Of a DNA stretch of 64,000 nt, positions 37,818 through 40,908 are shown one piece after another; position 1 is the stretch's first letter; each line of letters opens with the position of its first letter. The stretch spans positions 248,001-312,000 of the forward strand of contig NZ_JNIK01000021.1 of the NCBI RefSeq assembly GCF_000701365.1, in the 5' to 3' direction. The position numbers and the translations under genes are program-made. A model generated the notes under the pieces. It searched no databases. It worked only from the letters and a program-made list of their open reading frames with translations, and was not told the DNA's origin. This stretch comes from Blastococcus sp. URHD0036. GTDB lineage: Bacteria; Actinomycetota; Actinomycetes; Mycobacteriales; Geodermatophilaceae.

Positions 37818-38123
37818 GTGGAGCCGGTGAGCCTGCTGATCGGGGCCGCCCTGCTGGCGGTGGGGTACGGCGCGGGCCTGCTCACCCGCCGCCGGCCGGT
37901 GCCCCCGCCGCCCCCGCCGGCGCCACTGTGCGGCTGCGGCCACACCCTCAGCCAGCACGACACCGAGACCAACACCTGCTACGCCGAGCTGCGCCGCGAC
38001 GCCTACGACCGGCGCGGCCGCTGGTCCGGGCACACCTGGGTGCCCTGCAGCTGCCGCCAGTACGTCGGACCGCGCCCCATCGACGAGGTGTTCCTCCCCC
38101 GCCTGCTGCCCCCGGCCGAGTGA
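37818..38123 (+). CDS. Small membrane-anchored Cys-rich protein
   Basis: 101 residues: one N-terminal membrane helix (VSLLIGAALLAVGYGAGLL), Pro spacer, then a cytoplasmic module with CGCGHTLSQHD, ETNTCYAELR and WVPCSCRQYVG that may bind zinc. It ends 13 bases before the sigma-RsbT fusion gene, so it may belong to the stressosome operon. GTG with GGAGGGAG upstream. Function unknown. Confidence 0.7.
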   Translation: MEPVSLLIGAALLAVGYGAGLLTRRRPVPPPPPPAPLCGCGHTLSQHDTETNTCYAELRRDAYDRRGRWSGHTWVPCSCRQYVGPRPIDEVFLPRLLPPAE

Positions 38124-38136
38124 CCGCGTCCGCCCC

Positions 38137-39216
38137 GTGAGCGCCGCCGAGTCCGTCGGGATGCGGGAGGACCGACGCCCGCACGACGACGTGGCAGCGC
38201 TCATCCCCATGCTGCGGCGGATCATCGAGGCGCGGGTCGACGACGCCGCCACGGCCGACGACCTCGTCCAGGAGACCCTCGTCCGCGTCCTGGCCGCGGC
38301 AGCCCGTGTGGAGCCGGGGATGCTCGAGCCCTACGCGATCGTCACGGCCCGCAACGTCGTCGCGTCCATGTGGCGTGATCAGGACCGGCACCGGCGCAAC
38401 CAGCACCGCGTCGTGGACCTGGACCTGCCCGACCCGCCCGATCAGGACCTCCTCGCGAACGAGGAGCGCACCGCCGTCGCCGAGGCCCTGTCCCGGCTCA
38501 CCGACCGCGAGCGCGCCACCCTGCTCGCGCACGAGGTCTCCGGGCAGGACACCCGCTCGCTGGCCGCGGAGCAGGGGTCGACCGCCGGGGCCGTGGCGGC
38601 GCAGCTCAACCGCACGCGCGCGCGGCTCCGGGTCGAGTACCTGCTCGTCCAGGCGAACGTCGAACCGCCGACCGAGCGCTGCCGCCCGGTGCTGCTCGCG
38701 CTGTCCGGCGGGGACCGCCGCCGGCAGCGGGAGGTCGACGCCGGCCGGCACCTGCTGGAGTGCGACGTCTGCGCCCGGCTGAGCCAGCCGCTCATGGAGC
38801 GTGCGCAGCCCCGGGACGACGAGGTGCGCATCCCCATCTCCACCGACGCCGACATCGTGGCCGCCCGCCAGGCCGCCCGGGAGCTGGCGGCACGACTCGG
38901 CTTCGCCCGCACCGAGCTCACCCTCATCGCGACCGCCGTCTCCGAGGTGACCCGCAACATCGTGCGGTTCGCCGGGACCGGGGAGGTGGTCGTGGAGCTC
39001 GTGGACCGGCCCCGCCGCGGGGTGCAGGTCACCGCCCGGGACACCGGACCGGGGATCCCCGACGTCGAGCGGGCCCTGACCGACGGCTACAGCACCTACA
39101 GCGGCCTGGGGCTGGGCCTGCCCGGCGCCCGGCGGTTGATGGACGAGTTCGCGGTCGTGTCCGAGATGGGGCGCGGGACCACGGTGACGATGACGAAATG
39201 GTGTGGTGAGCGATGA
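38137..39216 (+). CDS. ECF sigma - zinc finger - RsbT kinase fusion
   Basis: 359 residues combining three parts. Residues 18-85 are sigma region 2 (ADDLVQETLVRVL, PYAIVTARNVVASMWRDQ); 112-168 are sigma region 4 (LTDRERATLLAHEVSGQ, HTH after it). Residues 180-215 carry Cys182 and the H-x3-C-x2-C motif His205, Cys209, Cys212. Residues 229-357 are a complete RsbT-type anti-sigma kinase: N-box SEVTRNIV (Glu270, Asn274), DTGPGI and GYSTYSGLGLGLPGARRL. RsbT is normally a free kinase bound by RsbR/RsbS stressosomes. Here it is tied to a sigma factor, and rsbR, rsbS follow with 4-base overlaps. A stress-released sigma factor is inferred. Confidence 0.88.
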   Translation: MSAAESVGMREDRRPHDDVAALIPMLRRIIEARVDDAATADDLVQETLVRVLAAAARVEPGMLEPYAIVTARNVVASMWRDQDRHRRNQHRVVDLDLPDPPDQDLLANEERTAVAEALSRLTDRERATLLAHEVSGQDTRSLAAEQGSTAGAVAAQLNRTRARLRVEYLLVQANVEPPTERCRPVLLALSGGDRRRQREVDAGRHLLECDVCARLSQPLMERAQPRDDEVRIPISTDADIVAARQAARELAARLGFARTELTLIATAVSEVTRNIVRFAGTGEVVVELVDRPRRGVQVTARDTGPGIPDVERALTDGYSTYSGLGLGLPGARRLMDEFAVVSEMGRGTTVTMTKWCGER

Positions 39217-40115
39217 CCGAGCGCACGGACGAGCTCCAGCCCGCGGGCTCCGCCCCGTCGGCCAGCACCGCCGAGGACCAGCTCCTCCCCCAGCTCGTCG
39301 CGCACCTGCGCGAGCACCGCACGAGGCTCCGCCAGGAGTGGGCGGGCCGCATCCAGGACTCCGGGTTGCTGCACGCGATGACGCCGCAGGAGATGGTCGC
39401 CGAGACGACGTCGGTCTACGACAACTACGTCGAGGTGCTGGAGACGGGCAGCGTGGAGGCGCTGCAGCGCTACGCGCGCGACCTCTCCGAGCGGATCATC
39501 CCCCGCGGCGTCGAGACGCACGAGGTCGTCGGCATCGTGCTGCTGCTCCGCGACGTCCTGGCCCGCTCCCTGTTCGAGAAGTACCAGCGCGACTTCGGCC
39601 TGCTCAACCGGGTGCTCGACGCCTACGAGCCCGCGGCCAACCGGATCGCCAACACGGTCGCGGTGTCGTTCGTCGACGAGCGGGAGCGCGTCATCCGGCA
39701 GCAGCAGGACTCGATCCGCGAGCTGTCCACACCGGTCCTGCCGGTCCGCGAGCGGCTGCTGATCCTGCCGATGATCGGCGTCCTCGACAGCGAGCGGGCG
39801 CGCCAGCTCACCGAGCAGCTGCTCACCGGGATCCGGACGCACCGCGCCAAGGTCGTCGTCATCGACATCACCGGCGTCCCCGCCGTCGACGAGTCCGTGG
39901 CCAACCACCTCGTGCGCACCGTCGACGCGTCGCGGTTGATGGGCGCGAGCGTGATCATCACCGGGCTGTCGCCCGACATCGCACAGACGCTGGTCACGAT
40001 CGGCGTCGACCTGAGCAAGATGGACACCATCGGCGACCTGCAGGGTGGCCTCGAGGAAGCCGAGCGTCTGCTCGGCTACTCGGTCAGCCGGGTGGACGGG
40101 GCAGGGGCGATGTGA
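39213..40115 (+). CDS. rsbR: RsbR-type stressosome protein
   Basis: 300 residues. Residues 20-170 are a helical N-terminal sensor domain (RsbRD-like, non-haem globin class likely). The linker IRELSTPVLPV leads to a C-terminal STAS domain 175-290. The second phosphorylation site is kept (Thr259 in DIAQTLV, equal to Thr205 of Bacillus RsbRA), but the first has Glu227 in VDESVA where Thr171 stands, as if permanently phosphorylated. ATGA overlap with the sigma-RsbT gene and GTGA with rsbS. Confidence 0.88.
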   Translation: MTERTDELQPAGSAPSASTAEDQLLPQLVAHLREHRTRLRQEWAGRIQDSGLLHAMTPQEMVAETTSVYDNYVEVLETGSVEALQRYARDLSERIIPRGVETHEVVGIVLLLRDVLARSLFEKYQRDFGLLNRVLDAYEPAANRIANTVAVSFVDERERVIRQQQDSIRELSTPVLPVRERLLILPMIGVLDSERARQLTEQLLTGIRTHRAKVVVIDITGVPAVDESVANHLVRTVDASRLMGASVIITGLSPDIAQTLVTIGVDLSKMDTIGDLQGGLEEAERLLGYSVSRVDGAGAM

Positions 40116-40510
40116 CCGGACCCAAGCTCGTCTCGATCCTGCGACAGGGCTCCTGGCTGATCGCGTCGATCCACACCGCGCTCGACGACACGCAGATGGT
40201 GCTGTTCCAGCAGGACCTCATCGAGCAGATCGGGCGCTACCGGTCGCGCGGGGTGGTGATCGACGTGGCGGCGCTGGACGTCCTGGACTCCTTCGGCGCC
40301 CGCACGCTCCGCACGATGGCGGAGATGGCGCGACTGCGCGGGGCGGAGACAGTGATCGTCGGCATCCAGCCCGACGTCGCGTTCGCCATGGTCTCCCTCG
40401 GCATGGACACCGGCAGCGTGCCCACGGCCCTGGATCTCGAGGAGGGCCTCGCGTATCTGGCGCGGCCGGGCGGCCGCGGACCGGGGCACCGCGGATCGGC
40501 AGCCGGATGA
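40112..40510 (+). CDS. rsbS: RsbS-type stressosome scaffold
   Basis: 132 residues, a single STAS domain. The RsbT target serine is present as Ser60 in VLDSFGARTL, matching Ser59 of Bacillus RsbS. VIDVAALDVLDSF and VIVGIQPDVAFAMV are STAS landmarks. It is expected to build the stressosome core with RsbR and to hold the RsbT part of the sigma fusion. The C-terminal 15 residues are a Gly/Arg-rich tail. Confidence 0.9.
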   Translation: MTGPKLVSILRQGSWLIASIHTALDDTQMVLFQQDLIEQIGRYRSRGVVIDVAALDVLDSFGARTLRTMAEMARLRGAETVIVGIQPDVAFAMVSLGMDTGSVPTALDLEEGLAYLARPGGRGPGHRGSAAG

Positions 40511-40908
40511 ACAACCTGGAGGCCCTCACCCGCGACTACCGGGTGGCCTTCCTGGGCTACCTGCCGCGCCGCGGCGAGGCCGCTCTCAGCCGGGGATACG
40601 AACTGGGCCGAGCCGCCGTGACCTCCGGGGTGAGCATCCTCGAGCTCGCCCGGGTGCATCACGAGGTGCTGCTCGAGGCCCTGCACGAGACCCCTCCGGA
40701 GGAACTGTCCGACGTGGCGACCGCCGCGTCGGAGTTCTTCCTGGAGGTGCTCGCCACGTTCGACATGGCGCAGCGAGCGTTCCTGGACGCCAGGGGGACG
40801 ACGGCTCCGCCCGTGCCGGACCCCCGACCGGAGAGCGGGGTCACGGCTCTCCGGCCGGGGGCCGGTCACGGGCGCGGGCAGCCCGGTCGGCTGCGCGGCC
40901 CGGGTTAG
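40507..40908 (+). CDS. Stand-alone RsbU N-terminal-like (RsbT-binding) domain
   Basis: 133 residues, all helical: DYRVAFLGYLPRRGEAALSRGYELGRAAV and LELARVHHEVLLEAL match the kinase-binding N-terminal domain of RsbU phosphatases. The PP2C phosphatase part is absent; the C-terminus ends in a Pro/Gly/Arg tail. ATGA overlap with rsbS. It could catch the RsbT half of the fusion after release, or bring it to another partner. A strong terminator follows. Confidence 0.75.
   Translation: MNNLEALTRDYRVAFLGYLPRRGEAALSRGYELGRAAVTSGVSILELARVHHEVLLEALHETPPEELSDVATAASEFFLEVLATFDMAQRAFLDARGTTAPPVPDPRPESGVTALRPGAGHGRGQPGRLRGPG

Follow-up and report, generated by a model that had tools for sequence, protein, structure and literature searches.

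The RsbR and RsbS protein families build the shell of the stressosome, and in Bacillus the released RsbT activates RsbU, RsbV and RsbW in turn before sigma B is freed. Other stressosome outputs have been described, with RsbU_N domains on GGDEF or histidine kinase proteins (PMC12143880) and a Vibrio rsbRSTX cluster accompanied by two-component genes (PMC9237108), and the sigma factor groups ECF48, ECF52 and ECF53 (ECF, extracytoplasmic function) have a fused zinc anti-sigma-like domain together with membrane helices (PMC8999054). We analyzed a 64,000-nucleotide stretch of Blastococcus sp. URHD0036 (contig NZ_JNIK01000021.1, positions 248,001 to 312,000; hereafter the window) in which a single gene encodes an ECF-type sigma factor, a Cys/His segment and an RsbT-type kinase, and is followed by rsbR, rsbS and rsbUN, a gene for a stand-alone RsbU N-terminal domain. 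Both stressosomes with other outputs and ECF sigma factors with fused zinc anti-sigma segments are known already. Judging from the sequences, we lean towards the view that it acts as a one-step switch, in which the stressosome would use the RsbT part to hold and release the attached sigma factor.

Like the RsbRST–RsbU-RsbV-RsbW-SigB system of Bacillus and Listeria (PMC6614362, PMC12143880), the locus supplies RsbR, RsbS and an RsbT-type kinase from one operon, has the phospho-serine of RsbS and contains RsbU_N. It differs from that system in that its RsbT carries an ECF-type sigma factor, its RsbU_N comes without a PP2C phosphatase, its RsbR is without the threonines T171 and T205, and rsbV, rsbW and sigB are not among the four genes. 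In the stressosomes with other outputs the RsbRST core likewise serves another output, but RsbT is separate there and the output is part of RsbT here. The fusion resembles ECF48, ECF52 and ECF53 in having the sigma part and then the Cys/His segment in one protein, and sister proteins described below add a predicted membrane helix; in the fusion a kinase occupies the place of the helix and a further domain, and the likeness is one of plan, not an assignment to an ECF group (PMC8999054). Ten loci of another family of the same order (f2) are also alike (RsbR 75-81%, RsbS 54-58% and RsbT 47-57% identical) and family f2 has the stand-alone RsbT closest to the fusions in the kinase tree, but there RsbT is a separate protein and RsbU_N forms the start of a long frame; the frame that was scanned, from L047, has PAS matches. 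From its rsbR-rsbS-rsbT layout with RsbU_N, family f2 is probably Mycobacteriaceae (compare PMC8115616). In other actinobacterial families (L054-L060 and L062-L067) a second kinase-like match directly follows the RsbT match.

According to an earlier sequence-only reading of the window, no arrangement of this kind was known. Among the titles and abstract openings listed in literature searches, none names a sigma-RsbT fusion, and the words RsbT, stressosome and HATPase are absent from the main text of an ECF review (PMC8999054); the main ECF re-classification, the stressosome surveys (Pane-Farre 2005, 2017) and an ECF-extension review lie outside that scope.

The fusion gene and its parts are as follows:

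38137..39216, + strand: gene for the fusion protein of 359 aa (ECF-type sigma, then Cys/His segment, then RsbT-type kinase), starting with GTG
38194..38388, + strand: sigma region 2, residues 20-84 (Sigma70_r2 PF04542, 44.4 bits, above cut-off, E 1.4e-11)
38473..38628, + strand: sigma region 4, residues 113-164 (Sigma70_r4_2 PF08281, 24.2 bits, slightly below the cut-off of 25.7)
38662..38802, + strand: Cys/His segment, residues 176-222 (C182-x22-H205-x3-C209-x2-C212, zinc-anti-sigma-like pattern)
38845..39198, + strand: RsbT-type GHKL kinase domain, residues 237-354 (HATPase_c_2 PF13581, 51.4 bits, above cut-off)

That sigma regions 2 and 4, His205/Cys209/Cys212 and an RsbT-type kinase lie in one protein, as the sequence-only reading proposed, was borne out by Pfam, by NCBIfam and by the single open frame that runs from the GTG at 38137 to the TGA at 39216. 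Membership of the ECF type is indicated by the whole sigma part, which exceeded the cut-off of the NCBIfam sigma70-ECF model TIGR02937 (65.3 bits, cut-off 42.9), and by the Pfam matches to regions 2 and 4 with none to region 3; within region 2, Q45, E46, T47 and L48 were invariant in 25 aligned rows. In an AlphaFold model of the fusion (62 rows) the individual domains were well formed (mean pLDDT 86.3). The sigma part matched Mycobacterium tuberculosis SigH, SigE and SigL chains in fold comparison (Z ~10-11) at a high root-mean-square deviation (rmsd) of 7-10, due to a different placement of the two sigma domains. A separate RsbT translated from inside the fusion gene is not indicated, because internal start codons upstream of the kinase are not conserved (the best position occurred in 17 of 34 rows).

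When the genome collection was scanned with a pattern, at least 35 loci were obtained. Among those listed, 33 are actinobacterial and have the whole fusion (one, L034, frameshifted), and the two remaining, from Pseudomonas, matched in the kinase only. The fusion loci listed belong to Geodermatophilaceae, Nocardioidaceae, Intrasporangiaceae and Propionibacteriaceae. In all 33, rsbR and rsbS come next (truncated by the contig end in L023), as does rsbUN except where the contig stops short of it (L023 and L024); the search for the sigma-Cys/His-RsbT architecture and its neighbors, proposed with the sequence-only reading, therefore returned at least 33 actinobacterial loci with rsbR and then rsbS downstream. 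In L034 (6001-7079, Blastococcus; by coordinates the same as G850 C1) the fusion is split by frameshifts that reflect either decay or sequencing error, and rsbR, rsbS and rsbUN each gave a one-piece match.

Within the window's own family the fusion was found near full length in at least 29 of 112 genomes, in three pieces in one more and as a fragment in another; the species of these 29 overlap with those of the 33 named loci. A class-wide sample contained it in at least 4 of 394 genomes, the window's genome counted. Of 97 relatives sampled, a single genome, from a different family of the order (G455), had the fusion and a second sigma-Cys/His protein. A phylum-wide sample of 396 genomes, queried with the sigma-Cys/His part, revealed the fusion in two genomes from a different class (L079, 58% identity; L081, 56%), followed in both by rsbR and the beginning of rsbS. 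The counts for the family and for the class-wide sample are lower bounds, as scoring took the best candidates per genome. The fusion is patchy in its distribution but probably old. The median ratio of nonsynonymous to synonymous substitution (dN/dS) over 10 partly overlapping pairs was 0.11 for sigma region 2, 0.14 for region 4, 0.10 for the Cys/His segment and 0.13 for the kinase; purifying selection is alike across all parts of the fusion.

The three genes downstream of the fusion are:

39213..40115, + strand: rsbR, RsbRD_N-like plus STAS, 300 aa (STAS above cut-off; RsbRD_N 22.2 bits, below the cut-off of 24.3)
40112..40510, + strand: rsbS, STAS only, 132 aa (STAS above cut-off; phospho-site equivalent Ser60 at 40289-40291)
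40507..40908, + strand: rsbUN, stand-alone RsbU N-terminal (RsbT-docking) domain, 133 aa (RsbU_N PF08673, 47 bits, cut-off 25.5; no other Pfam match and no PP2C)

One operon thus holds an RsbRST module: an RsbR with an N-domain and STAS, an RsbS of STAS only and an RsbT-type kinase. Each of the three genes overlaps the preceding one by 4 bases in the window, as had been read from the sequence, and such overlaps recur in other loci: with gene starts taken as the start codon nearest the aligned position, an exact 4-base overlap was present between the fusion and rsbR in 20 of 32 loci, between rsbR and rsbS in 22 of 32, and between rsbS and rsbUN in 27 of 30. The rsbR of other fusion operons is 77-96% identical to that of the window. 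Asp59-Ser60 of RsbS was kept in 19 of 19 aligned rows, at a place corresponding to the phosphorylation site S59 in Bacillus and S56 in Listeria (PMC6614362), and the seven ATP-site residues checked in the kinase were invariant in 34 of 34 fusions. Second rsbS-like genes occur near the fusion operon in L025 (349-735, - strand), L024 (3-233, - strand), L032 (9358-9723) and L033 (9407-9754).

In place of an RsbU phosphatase (RsbU_N, linker and PP2C), the operon encodes RsbU_N only. The protein is 91-131 aa long in 30 other fusion operons and stops at the RsbU_N domain or has a short non-conserved tail, as in the window; for this reason it has no recognizable counterpart of the RsbU linker 82-112, whose ordering by RsbT activates the phosphatase (PMC12143880). 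With the Pfam model, exactly one RsbU_N match was found in each of 14 fusion genomes, beside the fusion, none in five fusion-less genomes of the window's family, and one in each of six genomes of family f2, within a frame of 758-980 aa. The 14 fusion genomes therefore have no phosphatase with an RsbU_N docking domain that this model can find, and the usual RsbT-to-RsbU route, as judged from these matches, is missing from them, since their sole RsbU_N is the short operon protein without a phosphatase. In the window's genome rsbUN was the only RsbU_N match, and BLAST at E 0.001 returned the fused copy as the only kinase match and the operon RsbR as the only RsbR match besides RsbS. The kinase nevertheless seems to have kept part of its RsbT docking face, so that an RsbU_N-shaped partner may still matter: RsbT R19, R23 and N24 are named in the RsbT-RsbU interface (PMC12143880), and all 34 fusions have Arg at the places of R19 and R23.

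The sequence-only reading had further supposed that the fusion could dispense with both a phosphatase and an anti-sigma chain, and both parts of this supposition call for correction. Because the phospho-site Ser60 is kept, we still expect that RsbS is reset by a phosphatase; no PP2C (PF07228) was found in the window, and one of the 18 PP2C matches elsewhere in the window's genome could serve. The chain may also not be free of an anti-sigma, since the Cys/His segment is common to sigma sisters with a predicted membrane helix, so that the lock may include an anti-sigma in cis. In addition, one SigB-type sigma factor on another contig exceeded its family cut-off and has HATPase and SpoIIE-type matches within 3 kb, suggesting that a classical partner-switching system probably exists beside the fusion system in the same genome.

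The positions proposed for the H-x3-C-x2-C residues were right, but Cys182 had been overlooked and is equally invariant: Cys182, His205, Cys209 and Cys212 were present in all 44 aligned sigma-bearing rows (34 fusions and 10 sisters), giving the ligand pattern Cys...His-x3-Cys-x2-Cys of zinc anti-sigma (ZAS) domains throughout. The ten sister proteins have the same type of sigma and C-x22-H-x3-C-x2-C, and at the place of the fusion's kinase they have a predicted membrane helix; the hydrophobic stretch begins ~14-46 residues past the last Cys and is followed by a further part. Three sisters were scanned against ECF models, and two were above the cut-off and one at it. The hydropathy maximum after the Cys/His segment was 1.68-2.35 in 10 of 10 sisters versus 1.12-1.45 in the five fusions examined (the window's not among them), none of which therefore shows the membrane helix of ECF48, ECF52 and ECF53. 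Because these sisters share the sigma and Cys/His parts but have a predicted membrane helix, the simplest history is apparently one in which the membrane part that followed a built-in segment of zinc-anti-sigma-like type gave way to RsbT, a direction that we infer. In the kinase tree the fusions form one clade (85/85) adjoining the stand-alone RsbT of family f2. The sigma tree needs two changes, shows a single fusion origin in 34% of bootstrap trees and places the sisters on long branches; a single origin would fit the kinase clade and is compatible with the sigma tree, which does not show it. The only other match to the fusion in its own genome (G000:C12:352882-353456; L002, L110) is 28% identical and covers the sigma part; a zf-HC2 match lies ~80 bases past it on the same strand, and the two are likely an ordinary sigma/anti-sigma pair.

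In the switch that we favor, the RsbR/RsbS shell would bind the RsbT part of the fusion, keeping the attached ECF-type sigma off RNA polymerase, while the Cys/His segment, perhaps by binding metal, would act as a cis anti-sigma clamp of the kind it may form in the membrane-anchored relatives. The sigma would thus be under two locks, one imposed by the stressosome on the RsbT part and one in cis. Upon stress, the RsbT part would phosphorylate RsbS at Ser60 and the fusion would leave the shell, after which the released sigma would direct RNA polymerase to its own genes. As the docking face is partly kept, we give the lone RsbU_N an active role: it would meet the freed RsbT face in place of an RsbU phosphatase, and would either help to open the clamp or buffer the released fusion. 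We put forward only tentatively a fuller version, in which the shell stores sigma factors, at most one per RsbT site, that are released by the same kinase act, with the zinc cis clamp as a second lock and the orphan RsbU_N as a key on release, the whole having arisen by an exchange of RsbT for the membrane part of a sigma-ZAS-membrane protein and by a cutting of RsbU to its docking domain.

Several observations weigh against such a switch. Each of its protein-protein binding steps is one that we infer; of the direct stressosome control of sigma proposed in the sequence-only reading, comparison supports the conserved fusion, the stressosome operon and the absence from the genome of a findable RsbU_N phosphatase, and direct hold and release is the reading that we favor. 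The AlphaFold model had a pTM of 0.41 and did not reliably place sigma, clamp and kinase relative to one another. Pfam did not recognize the Cys/His segment as zf-HC2, and the segment was not recognized as a solved anti-sigma fold among PDB structures: hhalign against ZAS/zf-HC2 gave a probability of 43.5% (E 0.00024) over 20 columns, the best PDB hit was RslA (E 0.33), and a structure model of the isolated segment had no clear fold match. The NCBIfam model RsbA_anti_sig matched stretch 179-352 of the window's fusion far under the cut-off, and the kinase part only in L081. The RsbR threonines that RsbT phosphorylates in Bacillus, T171 and T205 (places located by alignment with a B. subtilis sequence), correspond to Val and Glu in the window. 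Of 13 fusion-operon rows, 12 have Val and one has Ile at the T171 place, and ten have Glu, two Val and one Gln at the T205 place, so that the phospho-code is without its RsbR part. At these places the three f2 rows carry Val and Ser. In the fusions the place of RsbT N24 is Glu or Asp, and by eye RsbU Tyr28 is seemingly not kept in the fusion-operon RsbU_N. Finally, no target gene or target promoter was found, and nothing points to autoregulation, which many ECF sigma factors show, because the conserved promoter of the operon is a SigA-like -10 element without a -35.

Of the other explanations, the one that survives best, though we regard it as unlikely, is that the kinase-like domain is itself a cis anti-sigma in the manner of SpoIIAB and RsbW, which bind a sigma directly; RsbS would then be an anti-anti-sigma and the stressosome an activator and not a cage. 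The nearest folds of the kinase part are indeed SpoIIAB (Z 18.4, rmsd 2.0 over 127 residues) and then RsbW (Z ~15.5), but the fold matches listed include none that is described as RsbT, so that fold rank cannot separate RsbT from RsbW. Against this explanation, sequence comparison places the domain together with stand-alone RsbT-like proteins encoded after rsbR and rsbS, and the sisters, which have no kinase domain, offer the Cys/His segment as the candidate clamp instead.

That segment could alternatively be a true redox or metal sensor of the RsrA type, in a protein that the stressosome merely tethers or gathers. The invariance of C-x22-H-x3-C-x2-C in all 44 rows is consistent with this, as is its resemblance to the C-x25-H-x3-C-x2-C seen in three of the six zf-HC2 matches of the window's genome (L107-L109). 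Yet the residues are equally invariant in the membrane-helix sisters and thus possibly structural only, and a sensor would leave the linkage to rsbR, rsbS and rsbUN unexplained; we consider this explanation improbable. We are just as doubtful that the sigma part is a mimic (compare PhyR) that titrates the anti-sigma of another sigma and does not serve RNA polymerase, as might be suggested by a weak match to PhyR_sigma2 under the cut-off (17 of 62 rows at E 0.01) and by the separate SigB-type sigma in the genome. The ECF model above its cut-off, a region 4 as conserved as the rest, the ECF matches of the three sisters scanned and the sigma chains from initiation complexes among the best structural matches all speak against a mimic. 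An assembly or frameshift artefact joining two genes, for which the split copy in L034 might be cited, is refuted for practical purposes, as the gene is uninterrupted in the window, in 32 of the 33 named loci (single matches at 67-94% identity) and in two genomes of another class.

We also examined the regions upstream of the fusion for promoter elements. A TANNNT box lies 5-8 bases ahead of a start codon in 32 of the 33 listed upstream regions, compared with 161 of 56,992 arbitrary positions having one at the same distance, and a G is mostly conserved at the first and fourth base before it; no -35 signal was present in these 32 rows (L020, in which the box is missing, was dropped). The predicted operon promoter is therefore leaderless and of the SigA-like, housekeeping kind, and autoregulation through an ECF promoter was rejected. 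The window itself is without the TANNNT box; only 13 bases separate its GTG from the end of the gene upstream (37818-38123; 101 aa with several Cys), which looks as though a small deletion had brought that gene and the fusion unit together (compare L003). Within the DNA covered, PRC-barrel/DUF2382 genes adjoin the fusion in three of the 33 listed loci (L024, 365-907; L025, 1818-2579, checked with Pfam; L028, 2353-3099) and the sisters in six of ten (L042, L044, L061, L083, L084, L086). Inspection by eye covered nine upstream regions and 30 taken from DUF2382 loci in genomes that carry the fusion. GTTT-N15/16-GGGCA, which looks SigB-type, was seen by eye in nine of the 30 DUF2382 regions. A palindrome like GTTTACNNCGTAAAC was likewise noted by eye in ten of the 30 (L114-L116, L119, L122, L123, L127, L130-L132) and overlaps GTTT-N15/16-GGGCA in nine of these, the exception being L122.

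The signal output of the stressosome is a long-standing question that in model species is clouded by the partner-switching relay. In the fusion-bearing actinobacteria this relay is seemingly removed, and the protein leaving the shell would be a transcription factor; if this is true, a reporter on one target promoter would read shell release directly. The lone RsbU_N domain gains a testable role, and the sisters and the fusion together suggest that a sigma factor was moved from membrane to stressosome control by one domain swap.

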